Part shown: one piece after another, positions 25-22,703 of the stretch
Numbering within the stretch: the stretch's first letter is position 1
How the letters are laid out: each line of letters opens with the position of its first letter
Assembly: GCA_028284225.1 (NCBI GenBank)
Contig: JANQSD010000023.1
Location: 1-64,000, forward strand
Direction: 5' to 3'
From: Arenicellales bacterium
Lineage (GTDB): Bacteria > Pseudomonadota > Gammaproteobacteria > Arenicellales > JAHEKD01
Length of the DNA: 64,000 nt
The notes under the pieces: model-generated
The model's input: only the letters and a program-made list of their open reading frames with translations
The model's database searches: none
Told to the model about the DNA's origin: nothing
Position numbers and translations under genes: made by a program

Positions 25-81
25 GTCGAGATCTCCTAAAACATAGATTAATTGGAAATCTCATCAATGTCATGGCTCTAA

Positions 82-3552: not shown

Positions 3553-6500
3553 ATGATGAACAATCAACGATCTAAACAACCACAATTGCAAGCTTTAAGA
3601 TTGCTGTGCCAAATATTGGCCATTTGTGTTATCAGCGGTCTGTCAACGGTTGTCAATGCTGCAATTACAAATGCCGCGCAAATAGAAGCATCAAACACTC
3701 CAACAGTCAATGTCTCTGTTTGTACAGCGAGTACAGCCAATTCCAATTCTATCGGTACCATAGCTAACACCGCCACTATTCAGGCGTCGAATACTGCAGA
3801 TGAATTTGTTGCAAGTTGCGTAGATATTATTGCTAGTTGTGCAGCCAATGAAACAGCTGTGCTTAACCGTGCTACTTTATCCTCTTCTAATTCAGACGCT
3901 GCCTCGGCTACGAATACTGTCTGTGTTTCGCCCAACCTGAATGTGGTAAAAACACTAAGCAGTGGTGGCCCTACCGCTGAGCCCGGCGAAACGCTGACCT
4001 ATAGTATTGCGATTACAAATAACGGCACCTCTTCAATCTCACTTGCGGCCGGTGATGTCCAGGAAACAGTGCCGGCGAACACCACCCATGCCGGCAGCGA
4101 TGACTTTACCTGTGCAGCCACTGCCGCAGGTTCAGCCTGTAGTAACACCAGTGTTGTCAACATTGCCGCTGCTGCAACAGCAACGTTGGCGTTCAGTGTT
4201 ATTGTGGATGATCCGATTCCGGCAGGGGTGACGAGTATAGACAACAGCGTGACAGTGCCGGGTGTGGATTGTACGGCTGCAGGTCAGGACTGTGATGAAA
4301 CCACGCCGGCACCGACGCCTGGCAATGTCACAGGCACGGTGTGGCTGGATGTTGACGGTGATGGTGTTAATGACAATGGTGAACCGGGGATAGCCACTGT
4401 GACGGTGTATGTATGTGCGAGTGGTGTGACACCATGCAACAGTGCAAACTCAATTGCAACAGCTGTGACAGATGCCAACGGTGATTACAACTTTCCAGGC
4501 TTACCGCCAGGTGATTACCAAGTGCAAGTGAACCCGGATGAATTGAATCCGGGCAATGAACTGGACGGATTGCAGGAATCACCCGGTAATATAGCGGGTA
4601 ATTCCGGGACGATCACTCTACCCGAAGGCGGGACTACACAAGCGGGTTTTGGCTATTTGCCGGATCCCGGCACCGGTGTAGTGGAAGGCACGGTGTGGAG
4701 CGATGAGGACGGCGATGGCGTGCAGGACCCGGGTGAAATAGGTATACCTGGCACTACTGTAAATTTATGCCCAGCCAGCGATCCAACGTGTTTGGCCTCG
4801 ACGCCGATTACAACCACGACCGGACCGGACGGCAGTTATATTATTACTGGCGTGAACTCGGGGGATTACGTGGCGTTTGTAGATCCGGCGGACAGCGTAT
4901 TAGCTGCGGCCTGTACACCGGATAGCGTTACAGACTGTGCCACAACACCGGTAGTTAGTCCGCCATTCACCGTGGAACCGGATGGTGTGTTGAGTGATAT
5001 TGATTTTGGTTTCGATCCGGATTCGACACTGACACACACGGACACAATTTTCAATGATCTGGACGGCGACGGCCAGCCGGACGCCGGTGAACCGGGTGTA
5101 GGTGGTGTGACAATCGATTTATTGGACAGTAACGGCAATGTAATTGCGACCACCACCACGGACGCCAATGGTGATTTTAGTTTTGGTGGGTTAGTAGATG
5201 GTGATCAATATACGATTGAAGTGACAGACAATGCAGGCGTGTTGAGTGCATTTATAGAGACCACAAACGGGGTAACAGAATCAACGGGCGGTATGGCGAC
5301 ATTCACGGCAACCGATGTGAGTGGAGATGGTTTGATTGACACGATAGGTGATGATGGCAGTGCGACATTCGGTTACAACCAGCCGGGGTCGATCAGCGGT
5401 AGTGTGTTTAGTGATGCGGACAGCAGTGGAAGCTTTGAGACTGATGAGTCAGGTATTGCGCTCGATAGTGTCGGCAACCCGATTGTAATTGAATTGCAGG
5501 ATGGGGTATGTACACCAGGGGCCGATTGTCCGACAACCACAGTAAATGCCGATGGCAGTTATCAATTTACCGGGATAGCGCCGGGTAGCTACGATGCGGT
5601 AATCACAAACCCACCGGCAGGCACAGCGACGACATTGGAAACAATTCCAGTTACGGTGTCTACCGACGGCAGTGTAAGTGACGTTAACTTTGGTTATAAC
5701 AATACTGGTTTATCCGACATCAGCGGAACAATATTTGAAGATTTGGACAGCGACGGAACCAATGAGCCCAATGGTACGGATGGCAGTGCTGCAACGACGC
5801 AGGACAATGAGCCTGGAATCGGCGGCGTGACGGTGGATTTGATAGATTGCGGTAGCGGCACTTGTTTTGACGGCGATGAAACGGTTGTTGCCAGTACTAT
5901 CTCAAATCCGACAGACGGAAGTTATAGTTTTGGTGACGTGCCGGATGGAAATTATCTGGTAGCGGTGACAGATGTGGCCAATGTACTGGATGGGCAGGAT
6001 TTGACCAGTGGGTTGGATCAGCTGCCGGTGACGGTGGATACAGCCAGCGGCGATGTGGCAGAGGTGGACTTTGGTTATGTCGATCAGGCTCAGACAGGAT
6101 CGGTTACCTCAGGTTTATGGATGGATGAAGACGGTGATGGTGTGCGTGATCCGGATGAACTGCCTATCAGTGGTGTGGAGGTGGTGCTGCATGATTGTGG
6201 TGCGGATGCAGTTTGTGGCAATGCTGATGATGGCCCGGATCGCACTGCAACAACAGACGCAGATGGTAATGTTATTTTTGATGAATTACCGGCAGGTAAT
6301 TATCAATTGGATCCAAATGAGAGTGATCCTGATTTTCCGGCGGGTATGATGGAAACGAATTATTCGGGTTCAACTCCTGGCGGCGTGATACCGTTGACGG
6401 AAGGAAGCCAGATTGATGAAGAATTTGGCTACGTGCCGGATGCAGACGTGGTGTTATTGACCGGAACAGTCTGGAGCGATAGCAATAGTGATGGGTTGAA

Positions 6501-9500
6501 TCAGGACAGTGAAGTGGGGCTTGGTGGCGTGCCGGTGATTATTCAATACGATTCCAACGGTGACGGCGTGGTGGATACAAATGATACCCCGATCACCGCC
6601 ACGACGAATCCTGACGGCACCTGGTCGGCAGCTGTTACACCGAACTCTGCTGCAGGCACATTGTCCGATTACTATGTACGTTATGACAGTACAGGTATTC
6701 CAAGTGAGTTAGATTCAAGCGAGCCGACTAATACCGGTGATCAGGATGGTGATGGATTAAATGATGCTCAGTATGTGCTCACGGGGCTGAATCCGGGCGA
6801 CCAGACCAATGATCTGGATTTTGGTTTTGCCGCGGATACGAATTCAGCCACGCAAGCGGGGAGCATAGCAGGCAATGTTTATGTTGATGTCAATGGTGAT
6901 GGTGACAACGAAAGTGGTGCTGATCCGGCGATGGAATTAGTGACAGTGAATTTGCTGGATTCATCGGGCAGTATTATTGCAACAGTGATCACAGACGAGA
7001 ATGGTAATTACACTTTTGATGGCGTCCTTCCGGGAGATTACACCGTAGTTATTGGTGACACCAATGATGCAACGATTGGGCTAAACCCGACCGAAGTAAT
7101 GGGTGGTTTGACCACCGTGACCATAGCTCCAGACGGTACAGCACCTACAGATGTGAACTTTGGTTATGCTCCGCAGCAGGATACGACCATCGGTTTGGCA
7201 TCGATAGGTAATTTGATTTGGCTGGATGATGCAAGCACAGATGACGGTATTTTCAATCCGCAGCAGGGTGATGTGGGCCTGGCGGGTGTAACAGTGCAGT
7301 GCTGGCATGATACTGATGGTGACGGTGTGTTTCGTTTGAATGGCATAGACAACTTAGTCCGTGAAGTAAAAACGGATGAAAACGGTGAATATTATTGTGA
7401 ATCACTGCCGGGTAATAGCACCTATTTTATCCGCATTACAGATACCGATGGTGTTTTGGTTGGGTTAGTGGATGCAGCGGATAAATCAACGGGCCGCACG
7501 GGTAATGCCAATGATCCGGATAACGAGAACGCACAGTCGATAGCAGGGATGTTGGAGGTGGCATTGCCAACCGATAATTGTGATACGGATATGCGTGGTT
7601 GTACGGCGGCGCAATTAATCGATGATGAGGTGCCGGCTAATATGTACTATATGGTACATACGTCCTCGCCCAACTATACGGCTGACTTTGCGGCCAAGGC
7701 ATCAATTGTAGTGACGGGAACGGTATATGACGAAGGTGCTCCGGGCGATCCGGATAATAACGGAACCTTTGATGGTGCCGATCTGCCGGTTGCCGGATTG
7801 GTGGTGACGGTGACCTATACTTTACCAAGCGGTACGACGGTGAGTTTGACGGATACGACTGATGCAAATGGCGGCTATTCGATTGCAGTGCCGGCGGGCG
7901 TGGCCTTTGTAGTCAGTGTTGATCCTTCCGGAACAACTGTTGACGGTCACAGCGGCACAGAGAATCCAAGCGGCTCAGTGTCCTTTCCAGCCCAGAATAT
8001 TGGGGCTGTACCCCAGGTTAGTTTTGGATTTGAAGAACCACCGACAGTGACCAACCCGATCACCTTGGGGTATTTTCATGCAGAGCAGGGTGTGAATGCC
8101 GGTGAGATTCTGATTCGCTGGCAAACGGTGACGGAGTCAGGAAACGTTGGGTTTAATCTGTACGGTAAAGCCCGAGGGTCGGATTGGCAGAAACTCAACC
8201 CAGATTTGATTGTCTCGCCGGTGGGGGATTCGATAGAAGTTCAGGAATACGAGTATTTATCGGTGGGGCCGGTGGTGACGCGTTTCGCCCTTGGTGATGT
8301 GGATATGTTTGGTAAAGAGACGATTCGCGGGCCGTTCAAACTGGGCAAGCGTCAAGGGGCCAATCGGGCGGATCGTAAGAAGACCAACTGGGCTAAGATT
8401 CGCCAGCAAAGTGAGGCTAAAAAAGCCAAGCGTAAAGCAAAACGTGAGGCCAAGCGTGCCAAACGTATAGAACGGCGTTTAGAACGGAAATTAGATCGGC
8501 AGGAACGCAAAATGCGCAAAAAACTCAAGCGCAAGCAGCGCTTACAGGACAAGGCGTTGAAGTCCACTTCGACTTCCCAATCATTAAATGAATCAAAGCC
8601 GTCTGATTGGACCTCGCGTCTGATCGGGGCGATGTTGTTAACGTTGGTGCCCAGTGCCCAGGCCAGTGAGGTTACTGAACCGGTGACGGACCCGGGATTG
8701 ATTTATTTCAAGACCAGCGAAGCGGGGATTTATCGGGTGACGTATGAACAGTTATTAGCCCAGGGGATTGATCTGACAGGGGTGAAGCACTGGCGGTTAG
8801 CGTTGATGCACCGGGGCGAACGGGTGGCGGTTCGTAGTAAAGGACAGACGCACCCGGAGCGCGAGCAGCGCTGGTATTTTGGGCCGGGAGGCTGGATAGA
8901 GTTTGTAGCGGAAGAATCAACGAGTTTATATACCGATCAATCGGTGTATGCATTGTATGAGGATTTTTACAAACGGAAATCGATGAGGTATGACGTGACC
9001 AATCCGAACCGTATAGCGGCGCCGGTAACGACCAGTTATAAAGCGACGGTGAAGTCGGATTATGAGTTAAGGTATTCGCCGGCGGCATCAGTGCCGGACC
9101 CGTGGTATGCGACCCGGCTTGTATCGACCAGCCAGCCGGTAACCCACAATTTACCGCTTGAGTTAGATCATATTTTGCCGGGACCGGTGAGTGTAGAGGC
9201 AGCGGTATGGGGTGGATTTGTCGGTAATCACCAAGTGTCGGTGCAGTTGAATGATTATGCAGTGGGGGCAGCGTCTTTTAGTGGGTTTACAGCGCGTACA
9301 ATTGGCGGGCAAACAACGACGGCTGCGTTAGTCGAGGGTTTAAATTTTGTCAAGGTAACGGTCACGAACTCAGAAGGGCAGGTGGCTGATGTGGTGCATA
9401 CGGATGAATGGTCAGTGAGTTACCCACGCCGTCTTGCCGTGAATAGTGATGCCGAGCAGTTGATATTTCGCTCTCAGGCGCCGCGGTTGCAGGTGCAGGG

Positions 9501-10791
9501 GTATAAAAAATTCCAGCCGGGAGCATTAAACCGCCGAGTGTATCGTAAGCGGGCCAATGGCGAGATGGAATCATTGAGTAAGGTGTGGATGCCGTTGTAT
9601 GCGGATGGGAAGTATCGGCTGCGGTTTGCCGGTGATGGGTTGGAGGAATCGACGTATTACGTGAGTTTGGTGAAGGGATTAAAGCAGGTGGAGTTTATGG
9701 ACCCGGTGCAGCAGCCAGATTTACTGTCGGGCAACGGTCAGTATTTAGTGATCAGTCATCCGGATTTTATAGATGAGCATATGGCTGAGTTGATTGCGGT
9801 GCGCCAGAGTGAGGGATACAGTACCAAAGTGGTGAATGTTGAGGCAGTGTATAGCGCCTTTGACCATGGTCATTTTGGTGCGCAGGCGATTGACCGTTAT
9901 ATTCGTTGGGCACATGCGAACTTGGGCACGGAGATGGTGTTATTGGTTGGCGCGGATACGCATGATTACCATGATTATAAGAACACGGGGTCGATGAGTT
10001 TTATGCCGTCGTTGTATGTGCAGACCAGTGATCGGATATATCATGCACCATCAGATGCCAAGTATGCAGATGTGGATGGAGATGATATTCCGGATGTTGC
10101 AATAGGCCGGATGATTCCCAGGACAACCCAGGAGTGGGCGAATAGTGTGACCAAGACACTGCAATATGCATCACATCCTAATCCTAATTCGATAGTGTTT
10201 GCAGTGGATGAGGCAGATAGCGCAGGACAATATTCATTTAGTGCGGATGCTGATGAGACAATAGCCGAGTTGCCGGATGCCTGGCAAGGTAACATTACCC
10301 GTGCGTATATTGATGAGTTGGGTATTGCCGGGGCCAGATCGATGTTATTAGACGCTTTGAACGATGGTCAGGCAGTGGCCGGGATGTTTGGCCATTCCGG
10401 TGCCCGTGACTGGACATTTTCCGGATTATTCAAGGCTGATGATGCTGGGAGTTTGACCAATGCCGGGTCGCCGACGGTGATCACACAGTGGGGATGTTGG
10501 AACACCTATTATGTGGCAGCGACAGAAGATACCCTGGCACATGAGTTTTTACTTAATGACTTAAATGGTGCGGCAGCGGTGTTGGGAGCGAGTACGTTGA
10601 CGCAGGCGGATCATGAGCGGGAATTAGCGAAGCAGGTGTACCCGCGTATGTTTGAGGCGGGTAAGCCGGTTGGTCAGGCTGTGTTAGAGGCCAAACGTGC
10701 TCATGCACTCACTTATTCTGATGAGTTGGATGTTATTTTAGGTTGGAACCTGTTGGGTGATCCGGCCTTGCAAGTTGAACAAGGTGAATAG
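3553..10791 (+). CDS. Giant secreted protein: DUF11, ten SdrD-B modules, basic linker, C25 (gingipain-type) peptidase
   Basis: This 2412-residue protein has a signal peptide of about 36 residues (ending STVVNA). A DUF11-type domain occupies roughly 130-240. Ten SdrD-B-like modules begin near residues 259, 380, 499, 616, 725, 853, 971, 1107, 1218 and 1390, most opening with D-x-DGDGxxDxxE calcium-loop patterns. Residues of about 1500-1597 form the ITLGYF...NVGFNLYGK domain common beside C25 peptidases. A Lys/Arg-rich segment (about 1600-1668) follows, then a second signal-peptide-like stretch ending SAQA near 1704. The C-terminal domain (about 2064-2412) is peptidase family C25. His2281 (in MFGHSG) and Cys2315 (in QWGCWN) are 34 residues apart, as expected for the gingipain His/Cys dyad. 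No LPXTG, PEP-CTERM or T9SS tail is evident at the C-terminus. It is probably a surface or secreted protease-adhesin. The domain calls are confident; the function is inferred. Confidence 0.85.
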   Translation: MMNNQRSKQPQLQALRLLCQILAICVISGLSTVVNAAITNAAQIEASNTPTVNVSVCTASTANSNSIGTIANTATIQASNTADEFVASCVDIIASCAANETAVLNRATLSSSNSDAASATNTVCVSPNLNVVKTLSSGGPTAEPGETLTYSIAITNNGTSSISLAAGDVQETVPANTTHAGSDDFTCAATAAGSACSNTSVVNIAAAATATLAFSVIVDDPIPAGVTSIDNSVTVPGVDCTAAGQDCDETTPAPTPGNVTGTVWLDVDGDGVNDNGEPGIATVTVYVCASGVTPCNSANSIATAVTDANGDYNFPGLPPGDYQVQVNPDELNPGNELDGLQESPGNIAGNSGTITLPEGGTTQAGFGYLPDPGTGVVEGTVWSDEDGDGVQDPGEIGIPGTTVNLCPASDPTCLASTPITTTTGPDGSYIITGVNSGDYVAFVDPADSVLAAACTPDSVTDCATTPVVSPPFTVEPDGVLSDIDFGFDPDSTLTHTDTIFNDLDGDGQPDAGEPGVGGVTIDLLDSNGNVIATTTTDANGDFSFGGLVDGDQYTIEVTDNAGVLSAFIETTNGVTESTGGMATFTATDVSGDGLIDTIGDDGSATFGYNQPGSISGSVFSDADSSGSFETDESGIALDSVGNPIVIELQDGVCTPGADCPTTTVNADGSYQFTGIAPGSYDAVITNPPAGTATTLETIPVTVSTDGSVSDVNFGYNNTGLSDISGTIFEDLDSDGTNEPNGTDGSAATTQDNEPGIGGVTVDLIDCGSGTCFDGDETVVASTISNPTDGSYSFGDVPDGNYLVAVTDVANVLDGQDLTSGLDQLPVTVDTASGDVAEVDFGYVDQAQTGSVTSGLWMDEDGDGVRDPDELPISGVEVVLHDCGADAVCGNADDGPDRTATTDADGNVIFDELPAGNYQLDPNESDPDFPAGMMETNYSGSTPGGVIPLTEGSQIDEEFGYVPDADVVLLTGTVWSDSNSDGLNQDSEVGLGGVPVIIQYDSNGDGVVDTNDTPITATTNPDGTWSAAVTPNSAAGTLSDYYVRYDSTGIPSELDSSEPTNTGDQDGDGLNDAQYVLTGLNPGDQTNDLDFGFAADTNSATQAGSIAGNVYVDVNGDGDNESGADPAMELVTVNLLDSSGSIIATVITDENGNYTFDGVLPGDYTVVIGDTNDATIGLNPTEVMGGLTTVTIAPDGTAPTDVNFGYAPQQDTTIGLASIGNLIWLDDASTDDGIFNPQQGDVGLAGVTVQCWHDTDGDGVFRLNGIDNLVREVKTDENGEYYCESLPGNSTYFIRITDTDGVLVGLVDAADKSTGRTGNANDPDNENAQSIAGMLEVALPTDNCDTDMRGCTAAQLIDDEVPANMYYMVHTSSPNYTADFAAKASIVVTGTVYDEGAPGDPDNNGTFDGADLPVAGLVVTVTYTLPSGTTVSLTDTTDANGGYSIAVPAGVAFVVSVDPSGTTVDGHSGTENPSGSVSFPAQNIGAVPQVSFGFEEPPTVTNPITLGYFHAEQGVNAGEILIRWQTVTESGNVGFNLYGKARGSDWQKLNPDLIVSPVGDSIEVQEYEYLSVGPVVTRFALGDVDMFGKETIRGPFKLGKRQGANRADRKKTNWAKIRQQSEAKKAKRKAKREAKRAKRIERRLERKLDRQERKMRKKLKRKQRLQDKALKSTSTSQSLNESKPSDWTSRLIGAMLLTLVPSAQASEVTEPVTDPGLIYFKTSEAGIYRVTYEQLLAQGIDLTGVKHWRLALMHRGERVAVRSKGQTHPEREQRWYFGPGGWIEFVAEESTSLYTDQSVYALYEDFYKRKSMRYDVTNPNRIAAPVTTSYKATVKSDYELRYSPAASVPDPWYATRLVSTSQPVTHNLPLELDHILPGPVSVEAAVWGGFVGNHQVSVQLNDYAVGAASFSGFTARTIGGQTTTAALVEGLNFVKVTVTNSEGQVADVVHTDEWSVSYPRRLAVNSDAEQLIFRSQAPRLQVQGYKKFQPGALNRRVYRKRANGEMESLSKVWMPLYADGKYRLRFAGDGLEESTYYVSLVKGLKQVEFMDPVQQPDLLSGNGQYLVISHPDFIDEHMAELIAVRQSEGYSTKVVNVEAVYSAFDHGHFGAQAIDRYIRWAHANLGTEMVLLVGADTHDYHDYKNTGSMSFMPSLYVQTSDRIYHAPSDAKYADVDGDDIPDVAIGRMIPRTTQEWANSVTKTLQYASHPNPNSIVFAVDEADSAGQYSFSADADETIAELPDAWQGNITRAYIDELGIAGARSMLLDALNDGQAVAGMFGHSGARDWTFSGLFKADDAGSLTNAGSPTVITQWGCWNTYYVAATEDTLAHEFLLNDLNGAAAVLGASTLTQADHERELAKQVYPRMFEAGKPVGQAVLEAKRAHALTYSDELDVILGWNLLGDPALQVEQGE

Positions 10792-11224: not shown

Positions 11225-11800
11225 CTAATTATCAGTACCAGCAGAAGCATTAACATCTGTAGTTTGCGTATAAGTTCCCGAGATCATTTTAAAACTGTCT
11301 TCAATGATAGAAGCGAGAGCACCGACACAAACGAGAAAACCAGATATTGGTACGATAACAATGGCATATTTTTTCGGCATGTAATTTTGTTTGAAAACTA
11401 ACCGTCCATCTTCCCAGGCAAAGTGCCACATTTCCCAGTATTTTCCTCCCATCGTGCTAACTGCTTCTATGCCGTAGATGATCATCACTATACCGAGACA
11501 AAATATAATCAGTGTCCAGAATTGCTGTACCACAAAGGCTAATTTTACGGGCAACCATGAATAAATTAGATCCAGTGCGATATGGTCCCGGTCTCTGACA
11601 GTAAGCGCCAGTGCTATAAATACAAGCCAAATATTGCTCAATACGGTGAGCAGATCACCCCATACAGGAGGATCTTCAAAAACATACCGCATAACCACGT
11701 TGTAGACGGCGAATATAACCATCAACAATAAAAAGATGGCGCAAAATCCAGTCAGTGTTTTTTTGACAAGTTTGTCGATCCATAGCAAGAATTTAATCAT
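11225..11800 (-). CDS. TRAP transporter small permease (DctQ family)
   Basis: A 191-residue membrane protein with four hydrophobic segments, typical of DctQ. The pattern FAVYNVVMRYVFEDPPVWGDLL in the first third is the family hallmark (N-x-x-x-R-Y-x-F). It is the small membrane subunit that partners the large permease in a sodium-driven, binding-protein-dependent transporter. Gene order is unusual: transcription runs binding protein, large permease, small permease, whereas P-Q-M is commoner. It is the last gene of the operon, 61 bp after the large permease. The substrate is unknown, probably an organic acid. Confidence 0.88.
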   Translation of the reverse strand: MIKFLLWIDKLVKKTLTGFCAIFLLLMVIFAVYNVVMRYVFEDPPVWGDLLTVLSNIWLVFIALALTVRDRDHIALDLIYSWLPVKLAFVVQQFWTLIIFCLGIVMIIYGIEAVSTMGGKYWEMWHFAWEDGRLVFKQNYMPKKYAIVIVPISGFLVCVGALASIIEDSFKMISGTYTQTTDVNASAGTDN

Positions 11801-11861: not shown

Positions 11862-13151
11862 TCATTTCACAAATCCTAAAGCTTTTGGTAGATACATGGT
11901 GAATTCAGGCACAATAATTAAAATGAACAGTAATACAAACAGTGCAACCAGATAGGGCAACATAGAAAGCGCTACTTTTTCCAGCCGAACCTTCGCAATG
12001 GCTCCGGCGGTAAAAAACGCAACGCCAACCGGTGGTGTAACAGATCCGATCAAAAAACCGACGACGACAATAAGCGCCGCCTGAACATCCGGGTAGCCAG
12101 CCTTTACCATGACATCCACTAGAACAGGACCGACCACAATGATGTTGGCAGCCGAGTCCATTACCATGCCCAGCAGAAAGATAAACATCACCAGTACCAG
12201 ACTAAACAGCAGCGGATTATAGGTGTAGCCGAGAAGCCATTGTTCGAGATCGCTGATGGCACCGAGGGATGTCAGGAGCCAACTGAAAGGACCGGAAGCG
12301 GCAATAATAATAAATACCATTGCTGAGTTTCGAAAGGCGCGCACAAACGAACTTTTGCAATTATTCCAGTTGATGGTTCGATAGATGAACAGACCAACGA
12401 ACAACGCTATAGTGGCGGTCAAGGCACCGGCTTCAACCACTCCTGCAATGCCAAAAACAACCGACCCGACCAACACAATAGGTATCAGTAGAGCGAATGA
12501 CGATCTATAAGCGGAGACCGCCAGTGCTTTCAGGCTAAAGGGTTCTTCACTGCGCTCGAAATTGTTCCTTTTTGCGATAATATAATTGATAGCCATTATC
12601 AGGAATCCGATCATCAAACCGGGAATAATTCCACCGGCAAACAAAGCACCCACCGATATACCCCCTGCATTGGCAAGAACGATCATCATGATCGACGGCG
12701 GAATGATACCACCGATCGTCGAACTGACAGCAGTAACGGCAGCGGCGAAAGCAGCAGGGTAGCCAGCCTTTTTCATCGCCGGAACCAGCAACGAGCCTAC
12801 CGTTGCTGTATCAGCTACGACCGAACCGTTCATTCCGGCAAAAAACATGGATACAAGAACATTCGCCTGCGCCATGCTGCCGCGCATCCTGCCAATAATT
12901 CGTTGACTCAGATCGACGAGCCTATCTGTTATGGTAGAGCTGGTCATGAGTTCACCCGTCAACATAAAAAACGGTATCGCGGTTAATGGCACAGCATCAA
13001 TGGCGCTGAACATCTGACTTGGGATGAGGATCAAAGGAGCGGCGTCCGTGATCAAGATATAGACCACAGGAATCAGGATCAGGGTAAATCCAATCGGTGC
13101 CCCCAGCATAATAAGTACAACCAAGATGACCAGAAGTAAAATGCTTTCCAT
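11862..13151 (-). CDS. TRAP transporter large permease (DctM family)
   Basis: A 429-residue protein with about 12 hydrophobic segments, the expected length for DctM. It has the typical opening (LLVILVVLIMLGAPIGFTL), the PFFMLTGELM motif after the second segment, the GGIIPPSIMMIV loop and the VTPPVGVAFF motif near the C-terminus. It forms the transport channel with the small permease at 11225-11800 and receives substrate from the binding protein at 13233-14273. All three lie on the minus strand with short gaps, so one transcript is likely. Confidence 0.93.
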   Translation of the reverse strand: MESILLLVILVVLIMLGAPIGFTLILIPVVYILITDAAPLILIPSQMFSAIDAVPLTAIPFFMLTGELMTSSTITDRLVDLSQRIIGRMRGSMAQANVLVSMFFAGMNGSVVADTATVGSLLVPAMKKAGYPAAFAAAVTAVSSTIGGIIPPSIMMIVLANAGGISVGALFAGGIIPGLMIGFLIMAINYIIAKRNNFERSEEPFSLKALAVSAYRSSFALLIPIVLVGSVVFGIAGVVEAGALTATIALFVGLFIYRTINWNNCKSSFVRAFRNSAMVFIIIAASGPFSWLLTSLGAISDLEQWLLGYTYNPLLFSLVLVMFIFLLGMVMDSAANIIVVGPVLVDVMVKAGYPDVQAALIVVVGFLIGSVTPPVGVAFFTAGAIAKVRLEKVALSMLPYLVALFVLLFILIIVPEFTMYLPKALGFVK

Positions 13152-13232: not shown

Positions 13233-14273
13233 TTATAAGGCACCGGCTTCTTTTAATGTGGCAATAAAGTCAGTTAGCCCCTGTTCTTCTAACACTCGCT
13301 CTGCAGTTGCAGGATCATACGCACCTTTGGCGTTTAACCAGGCATCTACCGCACCCGCCCTCCAGAGTTTCATTTCCTCCTCGGTAGGTACATACCACTC
13401 TTCGATGCTTGACTTGATTGCAGACTCACCCGCTTTTACCCACTCGCGATCCAGCTTTTGGACATGCTCTCCGAAGGCTTTTGCTGCAGTGTGCAACCAT
13501 TCTCTTTCCTCATCAGTGAGCTTGTCATACTGGCGTTTGTCCATAGATAACTGGTTACCGGACCAAACACCACTTATTTCGGTGAAATACTTGGCTACTT
13601 CATGTAGCTTGGCGACGTGTTGCCAGGGTGTTGCGACGTACTGACCCGAGACTACGCCGGTTTGCAAACCTTGATACAGTTGAGCCCAATCGTAAGGTAC
13701 CGGAATGGCCCCCCAGTTCTTAATCAAAGTGTATTCGATGGGGCTTTTGGTGACACGCCATTTGATACCTTTCATATCGTCAGGTACATGAACCGGTCCG
13801 TGAGCATTCCCAAGCTGGCGAAATCCACCGCTGGAGTAAACAGTCAAGCAGACGTGACCAGATTCCTCAGCTGCTATATCACACTGCTTCTTGGCTAACC
13901 ATTCCGAGGAAATTCGATCCGCATCTTCGATACTCTTAAATATGAAAGGCAGGTCGAAAATAGCCAACGCCGTCCCAAAGTTACCAAAATTTGCGGTTGA
14001 ACTGGTCCACATTGCAATCAAACCTTGATTTGCCTGCTCACCACAGGATTGTTCACTGCAAAGCGATTTGCGATAGTGTGGCTCAATTTTCATTTTACCA
14101 CCCGACACTTTTTCCAAGGTAGGAATCAGGGCCTGATCTATTGCGTCTCCGATTGGCATACCTTTGAAACCCACTGTACCTAGTTTTAATATAGTCTCTG
14201 CGTTCGCTGATTGTGTAAAACATGTGGTAGCGATACTGAGAGCAACTACTTTTAAGATAGATGTAAATTTCAT
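13233..14273 (-). CDS. TRAP transporter substrate-binding protein (DctP family)
   Basis: A 346-residue periplasmic protein with a signal peptide ending SANA (residues 1-25). The segment GIKWRVTKSPIEYTLIKNWG contains the conserved Arg that in DctP proteins binds the ligand carboxylate, followed by PYDWAQLYQGLQTGVVSGQ, the usual Q/E-V-Y-x-x-L-Q-x-G-x-x-D/S-G region. Extra cysteines (SLCSEQSCGEQ) could form a disulfide. It is the first gene of the operon. Its upstream region carries a twin GACAGAT site shared with the epoxide hydrolase promoter, which suggests control by the divergent MocR regulator. The ligand is unknown, perhaps a carboxylate linked to the epoxide hydrolase/aldehyde dehydrogenase pathway. 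Confidence 0.92.
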   Translation of the reverse strand: MKFTSILKVVALSIATTCFTQSANAETILKLGTVGFKGMPIGDAIDQALIPTLEKVSGGKMKIEPHYRKSLCSEQSCGEQANQGLIAMWTSSTANFGNFGTALAIFDLPFIFKSIEDADRISSEWLAKKQCDIAAEESGHVCLTVYSSGGFRQLGNAHGPVHVPDDMKGIKWRVTKSPIEYTLIKNWGAIPVPYDWAQLYQGLQTGVVSGQYVATPWQHVAKLHEVAKYFTEISGVWSGNQLSMDKRQYDKLTDEEREWLHTAAKAFGEHVQKLDREWVKAGESAIKSSIEEWYVPTEEEMKLWRAGAVDAWLNAKGAYDPATAERVLEEQGLTDFIATLKEAGAL

Positions 14274-14348
14274 AGACTTGTTCTCCTAATGGATTCTGTA
14301 TGATTGCTGTATCTGAAATCATATTTGCATATTGCCAATATTATGAAA

Positions 14349-14382
14349 AGTGACAGATAACACGAATACAGGGGACAGATAT
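14349..14382 (-). promoter_or_regulatory. Predicted MocR operator, copy 1 (divergent TRAP/MocR promoter)
   Basis: Two direct GACAGAT repeats at 14352-14358 and 14374-14380, starts 22 bp apart, lie between the divergent dctP-type gene and the MocR gene. A near-copy with identical spacing sits upstream of the epoxide hydrolase at 15933-15961 on the opposite strand. Read in the direction of the TRAP operon, both are ATCTGTC...ATCTGTC. The nearer repeat is 79 bp from the dctP-type start codon. MocR regulators are known to bind such direct repeats; binding here is inferred. Confidence 0.65.
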
Positions 14383-14460
14383 TGCAAGAAGTATTAGAAT
14401 GGAAATGAAACAGTACACAGGTATTTTTATCTAAACCAAATGTAAACTTCAGGACTGACT

Positions 14461-15921
14461 TTGGATTCCACCATACCTCACTTCGTATTGCCCGAGAATT
14501 CGAGCCTGGGATTGCGCGATCAAATTTGCGAAATGATCAGTTCTGCAATCAATTCTGAAGCTCTGTCGCCAAACAGACGCTTACCCTCTTGTCGTGAGTT
14601 AGCCACCCAGCTTGATGTGTCGAGAAATACAGTATTTTCCGCCTACAGCCGGCTGATTGACCTAGGCTTGATAGTTTCGCGTGACCGCTCGGGTTATTAC
14701 ATCAATCCGATTGCCCAGGCAGCCATACCGGGTACTGACCCGGTTAAATTCAGCGATGAGCATAGCGTGAACCCGGCTCCAATAGAATTTGAGTCGCTTG
14801 GATTGACGCCGGTCGACAACCCGCTGGATTGGACTAGTTATCCTTATCCTTTCATTTACAACCAGATTGATCCGGATCTGTTTCCGGTCGAGGGCTGGCG
14901 TGAATGCACCCGGCTCGCGTTGAAGAATACCAGTATGCCTGCCTGGAGAGATGACTCGGTTGAAAGCGACAGTTTGCTATTATCCCAGCAGCTGAGACAA
15001 CGCCTGCTCAGTTCGCGTGGCATATATACTAAGGAAGACGAAATATTGATCACCCTTGGTTCCCAAAACGCGTTGTTCATAATAGGCGCAACCTTTGCAC
15101 AAAAAAACGAACCTATCGCGATCGAAGATCCCGGTTATCATTACGGGCGCAATGCATTTCAACTCGCCGGCAACAAGCTGGTCGGTGTCCCGGTAGACGA
15201 TCAGGGAATCATCGTGTCGTCGATACCCAGCGAATGCCAACTGGTGTTTACCACGCCCGGCCATCAATTCCCAACTATGGTAACGATGACGCAGGCGCGA
15301 CGCGAACAATTACTGAGCGCGGCAGTTTCCAAGGACTTCCTGATTATCGAAGACGATTACGAAGCCGAAATGAATTTCTTCAACACACGCTCTCAATCCC
15401 TGCGTTCACAGGATAAAAACGATCGTGTCATCTATATTGGCAGCCTATCAAAAACCGTTTCTCCCGGTATACGGCTAGGCTTTATGGTCGCCCATCGGGA
15501 CATCATCCGGCAAGCGCGCATCGTCCGCGGTGTGATGATGCGCCATGCACCAACCATCGTTCAGGAGGTTGTTGCCCTGTTTTTTCAACTCGGCTATTAC
15601 GACGCACACCTGCGTAATATCGAACGACGTTACCAGCGGCGCTGGCACACGATGAACGACGCCATAACAAAACACCTGGGCATGTTGCAACGTACCCCAA
15701 CCCGTGGTGGCACTTCCTTTTGGTTAACCGGACCCAAGGGCTTCAATGCCTCGGAACTCGGCATTCGCCTACGTGACAGAGGTGTATTAATTGATATTGG
15801 AGAAACCTATTATCTCAATAGAAACAAACGCAGCTTCCGTTTGGGATTCGCATTTGTACCCATTGATAAACTCGAAGAAGGTATCCAGATGATTGCCGAA
15901 GAAGTGCAACGACTACTCTAA
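14461..15921 (+). CDS. MocR-type regulator (GntR wHTH fused to PLP aminotransferase fold)
   Basis: A 486-residue protein. The start is TTG, with AGGA 6 nt upstream (14451-14454); the next in-frame ATG would remove part of the DNA-binding domain. Residues of about 12-80 form a GntR winged helix (LPSCRELATQLDVSRNTVFSAY). Residues of about 125-486 form the fold-type I aminotransferase domain, with the PLP lysine in YIGSLSKTVSPGIRLG. In the MocR family this domain senses PLP or amino compounds rather than acting as an enzyme. It is divergent from the TRAP operon and followed by the epoxide hydrolase. Twin-repeat sites flank it on both sides, so it probably controls both. This block looks GC-richer than its surroundings, which may indicate acquisition. 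Confidence 0.9.
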   Translation: MDSTIPHFVLPENSSLGLRDQICEMISSAINSEALSPNRRLPSCRELATQLDVSRNTVFSAYSRLIDLGLIVSRDRSGYYINPIAQAAIPGTDPVKFSDEHSVNPAPIEFESLGLTPVDNPLDWTSYPYPFIYNQIDPDLFPVEGWRECTRLALKNTSMPAWRDDSVESDSLLLSQQLRQRLLSSRGIYTKEDEILITLGSQNALFIIGATFAQKNEPIAIEDPGYHYGRNAFQLAGNKLVGVPVDDQGIIVSSIPSECQLVFTTPGHQFPTMVTMTQARREQLLSAAVSKDFLIIEDDYEAEMNFFNTRSQSLRSQDKNDRVIYIGSLSKTVSPGIRLGFMVAHRDIIRQARIVRGVMMRHAPTIVQEVVALFFQLGYYDAHLRNIERRYQRRWHTMNDAITKHLGMLQRTPTRGGTSFWLTGPKGFNASELGIRLRDRGVLIDIGETYYLNRNKRSFRLGFAFVPIDKLEEGIQMIAEEVQRLL

Positions 15922-15932
15922 GTTAAGATTAA

Positions 15933-15964
15933 ATCTGTCCCGTTAATACCTGTAATCTGTCACT
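15933..15964 (+). promoter_or_regulatory. Predicted MocR operator, copy 2 (epoxide hydrolase promoter)
   Basis: Two direct ATCTGTC repeats at 15933-15939 and 15955-15961, starts 22 bp apart, lie just after the MocR stop and 67 bp before the epoxide hydrolase start. The region is an inverted near-copy of the site at 14349-14382, with further matches in the spacer. The same spacing and the same distance to the start codon argue for a shared operator bound by the MocR regulator. Confidence 0.65.
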
Positions 15965-16028
15965 CGACGACTGTAATAGTTTTTTTTAAATTAAATATTC
16001 AAATTCTTTCTTTGGAGCTTGCACCGAT

Positions 16029-17180
16029 ATGACCGCTTGCCAACCTTTTTCAATCGACATCCCTGATGCAACGTTGGAGACCATTCGGGAAAAAGTTGCG
16101 GCTTATCCATGGCACGAAATGCCTGACGATGGCGGTTGGCAATACGGTACTAATCTCGATTACATGAAGGAAATAGCCGACTACTGGGTCAATCAATTCG
16201 ACTGGCACAAACAGCAAGCTGAACTCAATCGCTTTACCCATTTCAAGGCTGACGTCGATGGCATCAAAATTCATTTTATCCATGAGATAGGCAGCGGCCC
16301 GGCACCGACACCATTACTCATCAGCCATGGATGGCCAGGGAGCATCGCTGAATTCATGCAGATTATCGAGCCACTTACGCATCCCGAGCGTTTCGGTGGC
16401 AATGCCGAGGATTCTTTTACCGTCATCGCGCCCTCGTTACCTGGGTTTGGATTTTCCGATCGTCCACCACGGCCCTGGGGGCCTCGAAAAATGGCCGCTA
16501 CATTTAATTCACTGATGACTGATATCCTCGGTTACGATAGCTACATCGCTCAGGGCGGCGACTGGGGTGGAGCGATAACATCGTGGCTTGGCTTGGAACA
16601 CGATGCCTGCAGCGCAATCCATATCAATATTCTTACCATGCGTCACCCTGACGGTCCAAAAGGTGTCGAAGAGAAAGCCTGGGCGGAACGTTTTGAGCAC
16701 GATCAGGAAATGGAAAACGGTTATCGCACGCAGCAGGCGACTAAGCCGCAAACTCTGAGTTATGCCATGATGGATAGCCCTGTGGGTGTTGCTGCATGGA
16801 TTATCGAAAAATTCAATTCCTGGTCGGATACCGATGGGGATGATATCGAAAGCGCATACAGTAAGGATGAGTTGCTTACCAATATCATGATTTACGTGGC
16901 TACTCGTACTTTCAATAGCGCATCATGGATTTACTATGGTCGGCGCGAAGAGGGCGGACGCATTCTGTCACCCGAGGGTAAACGTGTGGAGGTGCCGACC
17001 GGCTGCGCCCTATTCCCAAAAGAAATGCTGGCTTGGCCACCGCGCAGTTATGTCGAGCGAATTTATAACGTTCAACACTGGACTGACATGCCCCGTGGGG
17101 GGCATTTTGGTGCAATGGAAGAGCCCTTACTAATGGTGAATGATCTACGCTCCTTTTTAAACAGTTTGCGTAGCATTTAA
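16029..17180 (+). CDS. Epoxide hydrolase (alpha/beta hydrolase with EHN domain)
   Basis: A 383-residue protein of the usual length for microsomal-type (EHN) epoxide hydrolases. Residues of about 5-110 form the N-terminal EHN segment. The oxyanion motif HGWPGS is at 100-105, the nucleophile Asp178 lies in GGDWGGAI, and the catalytic His359 lies in RGGHFGAMEEP. It opens an epoxide to a diol by way of an aspartyl ester. No signal peptide is seen, so it is cytoplasmic. A predicted MocR site lies upstream and an aldehyde dehydrogenase follows, which suggests a short pathway degrading a compound imported by the adjacent TRAP system. The actual substrate cannot be told from sequence. Confidence 0.92.
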   Translation: MTACQPFSIDIPDATLETIREKVAAYPWHEMPDDGGWQYGTNLDYMKEIADYWVNQFDWHKQQAELNRFTHFKADVDGIKIHFIHEIGSGPAPTPLLISHGWPGSIAEFMQIIEPLTHPERFGGNAEDSFTVIAPSLPGFGFSDRPPRPWGPRKMAATFNSLMTDILGYDSYIAQGGDWGGAITSWLGLEHDACSAIHINILTMRHPDGPKGVEEKAWAERFEHDQEMENGYRTQQATKPQTLSYAMMDSPVGVAAWIIEKFNSWSDTDGDDIESAYSKDELLTNIMIYVATRTFNSASWIYYGRREEGGRILSPEGKRVEVPTGCALFPKEMLAWPPRSYVERIYNVQHWTDMPRGGHFGAMEEPLLMVNDLRSFLNSLRSI

Positions 17181-17232: not shown

Positions 17233-18732
17233 ATGTCTACACTTTTAACACATGATGAATATTGCAGTATTGCAAAAAATATTAGCTATCCGATTAATCC
17301 GTTTATCAATGGAAAGTATATTGCACCCTTGTCAGGAAATTCGATGGAAACTATTAATCCAGCCACCGGTACAACGATTACACGAGTAGCTGCCTGTGGA
17401 CCCGAAGATGTAGATTTAGCGGTCGAGGTTTCTCGTAAGTCCTTTAATGAGGGAAGCTGGTCACAAAAGCCTCCATCCGAACGCAAGGCGACCCTTATTA
17501 AATTGGCAAATCTAATAGAGCGAGATCAGCACGAGCTTGCCGTACTGGAGAGCCTCGAAAGCGGCAAACCCATAAGTGAGTGCCAATTGACCGACTTGCC
17601 AGAAACCATTGATACATTGAGATGGCATGCCGAGGCAGCAGACAAAATTTATGATCAGATGTCTCCTGCCAATACCAATGGCATTGGTATGATCATTCGT
17701 GAACCAATCGGAGTGGTTGGTTGTGTATTGCCATGGAACTTCCCCTTGATGATGCTGGTTTGGAAAATTGGTCCGGCTCTGGCAATGGGTAATAGTGTGA
17801 TCGTTAAGCCGGCGGAACAAACCTCATTAACCACCCTGCGTATTGCCGGACTGGCTCTGGAAGCCGGGATTCCAGCCGGCGTGCTTAACGTTCTGCCGGG
17901 ATTAGGTCCGGATGTCGGTGAACCGATGGGGCGACACCAGGGAATCGATGCCATATCCTTCACCGGCTCTACTGAGGTTGGACGGCTTTTCCTTGAGTTT
18001 TCAGCTAAAAGTAATCTGAAGAAAATAATCCTTGAATGTGGCGGAAAGAACCCTGCTGTGGTGCTTTCAGATGCTACGGATTTGGATAGCATCGCGAAAC
18101 ACGTGGTGTTCTCGGCGCTTTGGAACATGGGCCAGAATTGCACCGCTAATTCACGTCTGATCGTCCATAAGGATGTGAAGCAAGAACTGCTTATCAAGAT
18201 CAAACAGGAACTAAAAAGTTGGTATACCGGGGATCCGTTGGACCCAAAAAATCAGCTTGGCGCAATTATATCTAATGAGCAGTACGAAAAAATCATCGCT
18301 TATATTGATTCAGCGACCAAAGAAGGTGCCCAGTTAATCCATGGTGGCAAAGCAGTTACGTCAGGAAATGGTCTTTTTATAGAGCCCACGGTGTTTGATC
18401 ATGTCACGCCCGATATGACCATTGCAAAAGAAGAAATCTTTGGGCCTGTTCTGGGGATTATGACAGTAGAATCAGACCAGGATGCAATTGATCTTGCCAA
18501 TGACACATGTTACGGACTACAGGCATCGCTTTTTACTTCGAGCACTATAAAGACACATCAATACGCACGCGAACTGCAGGCAGGAACGGTTTCAGTTAAC
18601 TGCTATAGCGAAGGTGATATAACGACGCCTTTCGGTGGTTATAAACTATCAGGTTTTGGTGGTCGCGATAATTCATTCATGGCGCATGATCAATATACCG
18701 AAATCAAAACCATTTGGATTGAAACCGATTGA
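17233..18732 (+). CDS. NAD(P)-dependent aldehyde dehydrogenase
   Basis: A 499-residue protein of full length for the superfamily. The cofactor motif FTGSTEVG lies near 235, the general base Glu268 lies in LECGGKNP, and the catalytic Cys303 lies in GQNCTANSR. The closest-looking subgroup is the PuuC/betaine-aldehyde type, which oxidises omega-amino aldehydes and related compounds, but that subgroup call is tentative. It starts 52 bp after the epoxide hydrolase, without an evident terminator, so the two are probably co-transcribed. It would oxidise an aldehyde produced in the same pathway. Confidence 0.92.
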   Translation: MSTLLTHDEYCSIAKNISYPINPFINGKYIAPLSGNSMETINPATGTTITRVAACGPEDVDLAVEVSRKSFNEGSWSQKPPSERKATLIKLANLIERDQHELAVLESLESGKPISECQLTDLPETIDTLRWHAEAADKIYDQMSPANTNGIGMIIREPIGVVGCVLPWNFPLMMLVWKIGPALAMGNSVIVKPAEQTSLTTLRIAGLALEAGIPAGVLNVLPGLGPDVGEPMGRHQGIDAISFTGSTEVGRLFLEFSAKSNLKKIILECGGKNPAVVLSDATDLDSIAKHVVFSALWNMGQNCTANSRLIVHKDVKQELLIKIKQELKSWYTGDPLDPKNQLGAIISNEQYEKIIAYIDSATKEGAQLIHGGKAVTSGNGLFIEPTVFDHVTPDMTIAKEEIFGPVLGIMTVESDQDAIDLANDTCYGLQASLFTSSTIKTHQYARELQAGTVSVNCYSEGDITTPFGGYKLSGFGGRDNSFMAHDQYTEIKTIWIETD

Positions 18733-19193: not shown

Positions 19194-20153
19194 TTAAAAC
19201 CTAACTTGAATCCCAACAAGCCAACCGAACTCATCATCACCATCGTTTTCATCTTCTTGACCAACTTCAGTAAATAATTTCACATGTTTAGTTAATGCAT
19301 AGGTTAAATTTGCATAATAAACATCAATATCCGACTCTGTGTCGGCATCAGCACTGAATGTTTCATAGCCACCTGCAATCGACCACACATCTGAAATTTT
19401 GTATTTACCAGCAGCTTGGATCCAGCTACCTTCATCATTATCCGAATAACCTAATATGGTTTTAAAGTTTCCAATTTTTCCGGCCACATATACACCTGTT
19501 GTATCAATGTCATCTGCACTAGTAATAGCACCTGTGTCCTCGTCTATAGTTTCGCCAGGCGTAAAGTCTTGATAAGCTAATCCAACTTCCCAACCTCCAA
19601 AATTGTATCTGGCAATGAGGTCAACTGATTTTTCATCCTCTGCCTCACCATCATCACCTTCTCCAATATCGGTTGAAAATCGAAGTTGAAAATCGCCAAA
19701 TGTCGCAGTACCGAAGATCAAATCATCGCCGGCATCCTGTGGAAATGCATCATTACCTCCCATTTCGTAATCGAAATCGGGACTATAATCATCTGTTGCA
19801 TAGTCATCCTTTCCGACCCCAAGCTTAAAGTTTTGCCAGTTTATGCCCAAAATAGCTTTGTCTAGTACATCTGCAGAGTCGTCATTATCAATCTCGCCCT
19901 TGAAGTCTAGATCTATTCGGTTAAACACACTGGTTGTATCCGAAACATCGTAGTCTCCAAAAAAGTGTAATTCAACATCATCATATTCAATTTCAGCGTC
20001 GTCACCAGGTTCTGCTCTTTCACGATATTGAATCTCAAAATCACCACCAACAGAGAACGTAAAATTGTCTTTTTCGAATACGGGTGTTTTCGAAAAAGAG
20101 GGTAGCGCAAATAACGCACATACAATAAAACAGAGTCCATTTGATCTCTTCAT
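19194..20153 (-). CDS. Outer-membrane porin (Gram-negative general porin type)
   Basis: I place the start at the second in-frame ATG (20153), because GAGGAA sits 7 nt upstream, while the ATG at 20168 has no ribosome binding site. This gives 319 residues with a short signal peptide (to about residue 21, ALPSFS). The mature protein is highly acidic, with alternating beta-strand patterns, and ends in a terminal aromatic residue (WLVGIQVRF), the signal for BAM-dependent outer-membrane insertion. Strands such as DVELHFFGDYDVSDTTSVFNRI fit trimeric porins. It lies between the terminator hairpin and the two-component genes, near TctCBA, and may be the outer-membrane entry for the same substrates, as porins beside TctCBA are in Pseudomonas. 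That link is inference. Confidence 0.85.
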   Translation of the reverse strand: MKRSNGLCFIVCALFALPSFSKTPVFEKDNFTFSVGGDFEIQYRERAEPGDDAEIEYDDVELHFFGDYDVSDTTSVFNRIDLDFKGEIDNDDSADVLDKAILGINWQNFKLGVGKDDYATDDYSPDFDYEMGGNDAFPQDAGDDLIFGTATFGDFQLRFSTDIGEGDDGEAEDEKSVDLIARYNFGGWEVGLAYQDFTPGETIDEDTGAITSADDIDTTGVYVAGKIGNFKTILGYSDNDEGSWIQAAGKYKISDVWSIAGGYETFSADADTESDIDVYYANLTYALTKHVKLFTEVGQEDENDGDDEFGWLVGIQVRF

Positions 20154-20255
20154 TATTAAATTCCTCATTCAAAGTATCAATTAGCAGTTGGAAAATGTAT
20201 CCAGTCTCAGAGACACTTAGAATCATTTGGTTATAATGTTTTTAATGAACAGAAA

Positions 20256-20283
20256 TCTAATAAAATTTATGAGTTTTATTAGA
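20256..20283. promoter_or_regulatory. Perfect 28-bp palindrome upstream of porin
   Basis: The arms TCTAATAAAA (20256-20265) and TTTTATTAGA (20274-20283) have an 8-nt spacer. It lies 103 bp upstream of the porin start and 130 bp after the response-regulator stop. It is AT-rich and lacks a clear T-run, so an operator is likelier than a terminator. Just beside it, at 20241-20251, is TTAATGAACAG, which recurs upstream of tctC at 22789-22799. Confidence 0.45.
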
Positions 20284-20412
20284 TAAAAACTAAGGAAGTT
20301 GAAAGTGATTCGCGACTACAATTTCTAAAAAATAATTAAATTATGTTTATTATGAGGCTTGAAACGATGTTTCAATTCATCGGGTCGATATAAATCTAAA
20401 TATCAAATCGCG

Positions 20413-21102
20413 TTATCTAATATTTAGTTTGTAAATACGTTCTGGCCGACCAACCCCCCCGTAAGTTACATCTGCAGTAAGTTCATTCAGGCTTACAAGA
20501 TACTCTAGATAACGACGTGCTGTTGTCCGACTAATTTTTAAAGACAAGCCTAGCTTTTCTGCAGTAATATGTTTTGGACACTCTTTAAGATGTATCTTGA
20601 TTTTATTTAGTGTCAGACTATCTATACCTTTTGGTAAACGTGGGGCAGATGAAGGAGTGCTATTAGGATTAAGTTGCAGCAACTTATCCACATCATGTTG
20701 TTGCATATTATCCAAATTATGCATCCGGTAATAATAATCTTGGTATTTTTTCATGCTTTTTTCAAGTCGCTGATATGAAATAGGCTTAATCAAATAATCA
20801 AATACGCCTCCGTGTAAAGCATTTCGTATGGTGTCAACATCTTTTGCCGCAGTGATCATAATCACATCCGTGTGACTTTTCTCTTCGCGGATTTGTTGGA
20901 GCAACTCAGTTCCTTTGCCATCTGGAAAATAATGGTCAAGGATAATCAAATCCGGTTGGATAACCTCAAACAAATCCTTTGCTTGTAATAATGTTTCGGC
21001 AATGCCGTCTACTTGAAAATAACTTAAACGACTTATAAAGCGATTCAGTATTTCTGCGTTACGGGGATCATCTTCAGCAATGATGATTGAAATTTTGCTC
21101 AT
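20413..21102 (-). CDS. CitB/DcuR-type response regulator
   Basis: A 229-residue protein. The receiver domain is at 1-125: the acidic pair Glu-Asp-Asp at 10-12, phospho-acceptor Asp in LIILDHYFPDGKG, Thr in VIMITAAKD and Lys in YLIKPI. The C-terminal part (about 165-229) has the CitB/DcuR helix-turn-helix, with KISRTTARRYLEYLVS and VTYGGVGRPER. Its ATG overlaps the kinase stop (TGATG), so the two are translationally coupled. In this family the pair senses di- or tricarboxylates and activates their transporters. The likely targets are the divergent tctCBA operon and the porin. Confidence 0.92.
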   Translation of the reverse strand: MSKISIIIAEDDPRNAEILNRFISRLSYFQVDGIAETLLQAKDLFEVIQPDLIILDHYFPDGKGTELLQQIREEKSHTDVIMITAAKDVDTIRNALHGGVFDYLIKPISYQRLEKSMKKYQDYYYRMHNLDNMQQHDVDKLLQLNPNSTPSSAPRLPKGIDSLTLNKIKIHLKECPKHITAEKLGLSLKISRTTARRYLEYLVSLNELTADVTYGGVGRPERIYKLNIR

Positions 21103-22703
21103 CAGATTTCCTCCTTAATTGGTTCTTTGGGAATAAAAACAGTAACCAGGCTACCGTTAGGTTTTACCTGGTCGATTGTTAAATGCCCCTGACATAATTC
21201 AAGTTGTTCTTTTACCAGCCATAAGCCATAGCCATGTTCCTGCTTATCTTTACTGCTAGTCCCTTTTGCAAAAATGATATTAATATCCAAATCGGAAATG
21301 CCTGGCCCTTGGTCTTCAATTTCAAACACTAGATCCTTTCCTATATCGATTGCAGAAAACCTCACCTTAGCTCCTTTGCCAGCATGCCTTAGGCTTGCTT
21401 CAAACGCATTATCCATAAGATTACCAAGAATAGTGATCAACCGGTTTCGATCTATATTGGGGGGGATTTCAGATATTTCACTGCTTTCTTCAACTTCTAG
21501 AGTTAATCCAAGCTCATTTGCTCTGTTAAATTTTCCAATTATCAAACCACACAGCACACTGCTTCGTATGGACTTTAAAAGGAATGTAATTAGTTCTTGT
21601 TGTTGAAAATGCTCGTGCCCAATTACCTCTAGCGCTTTTTCAGTTTCGTTAAGCGAAATCAATCCAGATAGTGTTTGTAACCGGTTTGAGTATTCGTGCG
21701 CCTGGCTGCGCAACATGTCGGCTTGCTGTTCAACATTTGATAGTTTTAGAGATAGTTGCTCCAACTCATTTTTAAGTCGAAAACTGATCACAGTGCCTAA
21801 GTATTCACTATCTACATATATAGGGGATAAGTTCATCACAACTGGCTGATTATTTATTGTTTCTTCCAAATCTTGAACAGGCCTCTTTAACCCTCCAAAA
21901 TCGAGAATTTTCAAGATTTCATCGTTTGGAATGATATCGCTGAGAAAGCGTGATCTAATTTTTTGCAATGACTTCAAACCTAAAAAGTCCAAGGCAGATT
22001 TATTAATATTAGTAATTCGATTAGAAGCATCAATCGAGATAACACCCTCTTTTATCGCCTCTAACGTATTTGACTGTTCGGCAAACAAGCGAGCGATTTC
22101 TTCTGGTTCATAGCCATGAATTGATTTTTTTATTTCACGGGATAAATAAATAGCGACCATCACGGTTGACAGTACCACCAAGGCTAAATAGATTAGTGCA
22201 TTGTTTTGATAACTCTTTACAGTCTTTGCGACGGTATCCAACATATACCCGACAGATACGACACCAATAATGTTACCGCTTGAATCTTTAATAGGTGCTT
22301 TACCACGCATTGATGGTCCTAAACTTCCAACCGCCTTTGACACATAAGATTGACCATATTTCAAAGCCTGATCATTATCTCCACCCTGCATGGGTTTGCC
22401 GATCCGCTCAGGTACTGGGTGACTTAATCGAATACCTTGTTTATCACCAATAACAACAAACCGGGCATCAATTTTGCTGGCAATATTTAAACTTATGGTT
22501 TGTAGATAATCCGTATCGGCAAGTTCAACAGCATTTGATATCTCTTTTATTTGTGAGATTGATTGCGCAACATTTTTTGCACGTTGCCCGATCTGATTTT
22601 CAAGAACATCTTCCAGATAAATAAAATTGAAAGCAAGTAGTATTCCTCCTTGTGCGATGGTGAGCCCAAGTAAAATTAATAATACTCGTTTTTGAAAATT
22701 CAA
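21102..22703 (-). CDS. CitA/DcuS-type sensor histidine kinase
   Basis: A 533-residue membrane kinase. TM1 is at about 7-27. A periplasmic PAS/Cache domain spans about 30-165, with the ISHPVPERIGKPMQGGD-like segment seen here as RLSHPVPERIG. TM2 is at about 168-188 and a cytoplasmic PAS domain at about 210-320. The DHp helix has His in AHEYSNRLQTLSGL, and the HATPase domain carries the N box (NLMDNAFEA) and G boxes (DQGPGISD, GYGLWLV). It is encoded first, with its response regulator overlapping downstream. It lies divergent from tctCBA, replacing the TctDE pair known elsewhere. The likely ligand is citrate or a related carboxylate. Confidence 0.92.
   Translation of the reverse strand: MNFQKRVLLILLGLTIAQGGILLAFNFIYLEDVLENQIGQRAKNVAQSISQIKEISNAVELADTDYLQTISLNIASKIDARFVVIGDKQGIRLSHPVPERIGKPMQGGDNDQALKYGQSYVSKAVGSLGPSMRGKAPIKDSSGNIIGVVSVGYMLDTVAKTVKSYQNNALIYLALVVLSTVMVAIYLSREIKKSIHGYEPEEIARLFAEQSNTLEAIKEGVISIDASNRITNINKSALDFLGLKSLQKIRSRFLSDIIPNDEILKILDFGGLKRPVQDLEETINNQPVVMNLSPIYVDSEYLGTVISFRLKNELEQLSLKLSNVEQQADMLRSQAHEYSNRLQTLSGLISLNETEKALEVIGHEHFQQQELITFLLKSIRSSVLCGLIIGKFNRANELGLTLEVEESSEISEIPPNIDRNRLITILGNLMDNAFEASLRHAGKGAKVRFSAIDIGKDLVFEIEDQGPGISDLDINIIFAKGTSSKDKQEHGYGLWLVKEQLELCQGHLTIDQVKPNGSLVTVFIPKEPIKEEI

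Follow-up and report, generated by a model that had tools for sequence, protein, structure and literature searches.

In the 64,000-nucleotide stretch of an Arenicellales bacterium analyzed here (contig JANQSD010000023.1; hereafter the window), a gene encoding a MocR-type regulator is flanked on both sides by a twin-repeat element. Judging from how these elements are conserved, we consider it very probable that they are operators of the intervening MocR protein, controlling a small local regulon composed of a tripartite ATP-independent periplasmic (TRAP) importer on one side, and an epoxide hydrolase (EH) with an aldehyde dehydrogenase (ALDH) on the other (Table 1). An earlier note on this DNA had proposed such an interpretation, and it holds in its main lines: the sites are conserved, they are nearly exclusive to this locus within genomes, and they move with their targets.

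Reading the window directly, we found AGTGACAGATAACACGAATACAGGGGACAGAT at operator 1 (plus strand) and AGTGACAGATTACAGGTATTAACGGGACAGAT at operator 2 (minus strand), each a pair of direct repeats whose period is 22 bp. The twin repeat described on both sides of the MocR gene was therefore correct to the base, and its 22-bp period was present in both operators. From the 32-bp site to the start codon there are 75 nt for dctP (start at 14273) and 64 nt for the EH gene (start at 16029); the 79 and 67 bp given previously are recovered as 79 and 67-68 when measured from the GACAGAT core. The second copy, which had been called inverted, is so on the chromosome, but both copies have the same orientation relative to their targets, dctP and EH. 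Regarding the spacer bases said to be shared, 7 of 13 do agree in the window, but the orthologues keep unlike spacers at the two sites (..TTCAA.. on the TRAP side and TTCGAA.. on the EH side), so that the agreement is probably mostly due to chance. The pattern GACAGAT-N13-GGGACAGAT, with 16 fixed bases, matched exactly twice in the 4.09-Mb source genome, at operators 1 and 2 only, against an expectation of approximately 0.002, and the half-site common to both operators extends 2-4 bases further. The next-best sites had 2 mismatches, and a reversed control pattern gave a similar background. We rejected additional regulon members in the source genome, given that sites with 2-3 mismatches are at background level.

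A scan of species genomes returned 56 loci with a relative of this MocR, most of them 60-80% identical. Among the 47 core loci with enough flanking sequence, we looked for a period-22 pair within 300 bp of mocR, with at most 4 mismatches in 18 positions. The pair was found upstream of mocR (plus strand) in 45 loci and downstream of it (minus strand) in 44, in alpha- and gammaproteobacteria, while dinucleotide shuffles gave a mean of 0.0 and 0.05 matches, respectively. The opposite strand gave no operator match at these 47 loci, and most other periods gave few. As a control against 22 bp, period 26 reached 12 loci on the EH side at 3 mismatches or fewer; inspection of these strong period-26 matches traced them to a self-overlap of the GAGAGACAG half-site in seven loci and to an extra box in five (L044-L046, L048 and L050). 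Hence, a third box in all EH promoters was rejected. Half-sites, spacing and orientation are kept over the divergence between alphas and gammas, and spacers and flanks diverge. The gene order dctQ-dctM-dctP-mocR-EH is also kept in most loci of both classes, often with ALDH. Loci keeping the genes and losing the repeats had been named in the earlier note as the outcome that would speak against it; the repeats were kept. Both operators are also found on plasmids of Ruegeria pomeroyi DSS-3 and Leisingera thetidis. One locus carries tandem operators, with four half-sites, upstream of mocR (L017:3484-3550). Besides, a contig filed under an Acidimicrobiales metagenome-assembled genome bears the gammaproteobacterial version of the locus (L012; MocR 75% identical) and is probably misbinned.

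When the orthologous promoters were aligned on the proximal repeat, both gave the consensus ATCTGTCCC-N13-AYCTGTCWC toward the target, followed on both sides by a -10-like peak of information content at about +30 to +38 from that repeat (46-47 loci). The peak is weaker on the EH side than on the dctP side and is clear in the alphas, where the -10-like sequences are TGAAaGAT before dctP and GTTAtcTG before EH. No -35 consensus was seen at either target promoter in this alignment. A fixed distance to a -10-like box together with the lack of a conserved -35 suggests an activator: with the -10 hexamer placed at -12 to -7, the proximal repeat would fall at about -44 to -36, a position from which an activator could act beside RNA polymerase. 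On the mocR side, many orthologues have an ordinary promoter right after the operator, composed of CTGACA, 18 bp and TAnnnT; its -35-like CTGACA part is not present in the window.

Being 22 bp apart, the repeats would lie on the same face of the helix, and a head-to-tail dimer of MocR most likely occupies the two of them. Direct repeats spaced by two or three helical turns are the binding sites of several characterised MocR proteins (PMC5320631), and we infer that this one does bind its repeats and that it activates rather than represses. Loaded with pyridoxal phosphate (PLP) and an amine or amino-acid-like inducer, it would activate two promoters, the left one driving the TRAP operon dctPMQ and the right one driving EH and ALDH. 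Operator 1 also lies upstream of mocR, from where it could mediate autoregulation.

To delimit the regulon, whole genomes of relatives are informative. In 14 of them, every site with at most one mismatch was at the locus, except for one in strain HTCC2255. Four gammaproteobacterial relatives behaved likewise, apart from a site before an Opp-type operon in genome G039 and a one-mismatch match away from the mocR locus in another genome (G088:C68:23999-24028). In two loci (L023 and L024), EH is separated from mocR by other genes and retains the site in front of it at 105-107 bp, the distance seen in relatives. In G039 no TRAP orthologue was found (best DctM, 37%), and a third copy of the operator, with 1 mismatch (L139:6360-6390, minus strand) and the same -10 spacing precedes an Opp-type ATP-binding cassette (ABC) importer operon encoding an SBP_bac_5 protein, two permeases and two ATPases (L139:6465-12800). 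A divergent Amidohydro_3 gene is found next to it (L139:4418-6013). HTCC2255 carries a 129-bp copy of the dctP leader, 94% identical and including the operator, the upstream region and the start codon (L144:5862-5990), which sits 269 bp before an operon for a DAO-family oxidase and a polyamine-type ABC importer. The R. pomeroyi orthologues of this operon (57-66% identity) adjoin its own MocR cluster. On the other side of the copied leader there is a DMSP_lyase-family cupin gene (PF16867). Finally, Rhodobacteraceae Alg231_04 combines in one genome two MocR subclades, the EH type and the related class III aminotransferase type, whose operators are almost the same (L052 and L061), and cross-talk between the two is possible.

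Several points weigh against the twin repeats being activator sites through which this MocR controls the whole gene set. ALDH, which has no operator of its own, was found in 30 loci vs 46 for EH, and is absent next to EH in many of them. Autoregulation by operator 1 is uncertain in the window, because the CTGACA element of many orthologues is missing there. Moreover, EnuR, the MocR protein of ectoine catabolism, has been described as a repressor (PMC8739950), and the same repeats could be used by another regulator. With respect to the link that the earlier note drew between TRAP, EH and ALDH, a regulon of TRAP and EH is supported and ALDH is the less constant member; that all of them serve a single pathway is what we infer.

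One could argue, following the precedent of EnuR, that MocR is a repressor that sits on the operators in its ligand-free state and is released upon aldimine formation between the inducer and PLP. The proximal repeat would indeed flank or overlap the -35 region, where RNA polymerase could be blocked by the bound protein. However, the absence of a -35 consensus, the fixed -10-like spacing and the location of the sites entirely upstream of the -10 are more in keeping with activation, and both GabR and TauR are activators (PMC5320631), so we hold repression to be possible but the less likely mode. It is quite improbable that a different regulator binds the repeats and MocR is a mere passenger: the genome does contain three further MocR paralogues, but almost all loci found with this mocR have the sites on either side of it, similar sites are kept by a related MocR subclade located next to class III aminotransferase genes, and only dctP and EH, the presumed targets, are as constant as mocR itself. 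As for the repeats being a chance occurrence or a duplicated promoter fragment with no regulatory role, the case of HTCC2255 does show that a leader fragment may be copied in its entirety, but the genome count, shuffles giving nearly no matches, and the conservation of spacing, orientation and half-sites between alphas and gammas amid diverging spacers and flanks led us to reject a chance origin and make this explanation negligible.

The regulator is assigned to the MocR type because it joins a GntR helix-turn-helix to a class I aminotransferase-like domain. Its residues K331, D298/D299, Y300, R338 and R460 are conserved in 96% or more of the 54 orthologues, and we take them to be PLP-site residues, including the Schiff-base lysine. 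In DctP, Arg152 and Arg173 are invariant in 17 orthologues, and the latter lines up with the KxR position of DctP proteins whose structures are solved. In EH, Asp178, Glu332 and His359 are invariant in 17 orthologues and presumably form the Asp-His-Glu triad, as assigned from the microsomal enzyme. ALDH follows EH at 52 bp and is encoded on the same strand. Beyond the regulon, the window contains a 2412-aa open frame beside the TRAP genes, with many Sdr-like repeats in its translation (3553-10791), and, adjoining the regulon, a porin, a DpiA/DcuR-like response regulator and a sensor-kinase-like frame, all on one strand (19194-22703).

Table 1. Predicted operators, -10-like boxes and genes of the mocR locus (coordinates in the window).
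Feature	Position	Strand	Details
DctQ, TRAP small permease	11225..11800	-	PF04290; in 40/56 loci
DctM, TRAP large permease	11862..13151	-	PF06808; in 42/56 loci
DctP, TRAP solute-binding protein	13233..14273	-	PF03480; 67-89% identical in nearly all orthologous loci
-10-like box, dctP promoter	14321..14326	-	AAATAT; +32..37 from proximal repeat; peak across 46 loci
Operator 1 (predicted)	14349..14380	+	AGTGACAGAT-N12-GGGGACAGAT; between dctP and mocR; toward dctP ATCTGTCCC-N13-ATCTGTCAC
MocR-type regulator	14461..15921	+	TTG start; PF00392 (residues 19-81) and PF00155 (residues 177-477)
Operator 2 (predicted)	15933..15964	-	twin repeat like operator 1; between mocR and EH gene; toward EH ATCTGTCCC-N13-ATCTGTCAC
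-10-like box, EH promoter	15987..15992	+	TAAATT; +32..37 from proximal repeat; weaker peak +31..38, 47 loci
Epoxide hydrolase (EHN type)	16029..17180	+	PF06441 (117 bits) and PF00561; PDB relatives 5f4z, 4i19
Aldehyde dehydrogenase	17233..18732	+	PF00171; closest PDB chains 7uyy, 5iuu, KauB 6b4r

The regulon genes would together take up and break down one carboxylate-bearing compound. A carboxylate on the imported molecule is likely, since DctP keeps its two invariant arginines, one of them at the KxR position, and a MocR-type sensor suggests an amine or an amino acid as effector. The dctP orthologue of R. pomeroyi, SPOA0374, which we identified from the gene order (it comes seven genes ahead of SPOA0381), was upregulated 2.2-fold with exometabolites of Micromonas commoda, and the nearby SPOA0381 and SPOA0384 were upregulated 2.4- and 2.8-fold (PMC9870897). 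Tentatively, and with more doubt than confidence, we propose that marine proteobacteria have a catabolic route, so far undescribed, for an epoxide bearing an amine and a carboxylate (or for its precursor), which phytoplankton would release and MocR would sense through PLP; in it, new importer operons would capture the promoter-operator module whole, making the importer exchangeable while the regulator and the hydrolase stay. Extra neighbours seen in one or two loci each, such as a serine dehydratase (L052/L053) or a homocysteine S-methyltransferase (L025), were not built upon as pathway clues. For a TRAP importer of many marine alpha- and gammaproteobacteria, the analysis provides a defined operator, a defined regulator and a closed set of genes, and it finds the operator module before a different importer where the usual TRAP has been lost. 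Because R. pomeroyi has the orthologues, the regulon is testable, and the question of the substrate can be directly addressed by inducer screening.

In order to contextualize these results, we compared the locus with known MocR systems. It resembles that of TauR, whose operator consists of direct repeats CTGGACYTAA (PMC5320631), in that both have a MocR protein and a pair of direct repeats with a GAC core, and importer and catabolic genes are controlled by TauR and predicted to be so here. The roseobacter tauR leaders analyzed contain TAAGTCCAG (CTGGACTTA)-type sites, 22 bp apart in one of them (L152), but the half-site differs, CTGGACTTA vs GGGACAGAT, the one in the window being GKGACAGAT. 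In our tree, the clade of the window's MocR is split from the TauR rows by a 100/100 branch, with the limit that the tau-locus rows are not all in one group and that some of the joins are between long branches. No taurine genes (xsc, tpa or tauABC) were found at the locus, where the predicted targets are TRAP, EH and ALDH; the xsc of the source genome is elsewhere, near another MocR (L145), and the tauR of R. pomeroyi is SPO3562 (PMC4334477). According to the tree and the half-site, we rejected a TauR identity for this regulator. Close in gene content is TauR2, with a predicted regulon of TRAP importers of unknown specificity, COG1012, COG596 and oppABCDF (Suvorova & Rodionov 2016, PMC5320631); Roseovarius sp. 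217 and R. pomeroyi are among the bacteria with orthologues in our set. The TauR2 list further includes tauE and COG523, neither of which was seen here, and the main text of that work presents no promoter geometry or conservation survey for TauR2. Compared by gene content only, the TauR2 regulon may be the one described here, and its operator perhaps already predicted in silico.

GabR, EhuR (EnuR) and PdxR share with the window's MocR the domain architecture and a divergent importer or catabolic operon under known or predicted MocR control. The NCBIfam scores for GabR and EhuR are far below the cut-off, and the PdxR model passes (346.5 vs a cut-off of 320); however, there is no PLP-synthesis gene at the locus and neither site precedes a pdx gene. 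In the literature, we found nothing specific on a MocR together with an epoxide hydrolase and a TRAP importer. All in all, the evidence argues for a MocR operator with a small local regulon, which from its sequence would be a well-supported new example of an already known type.
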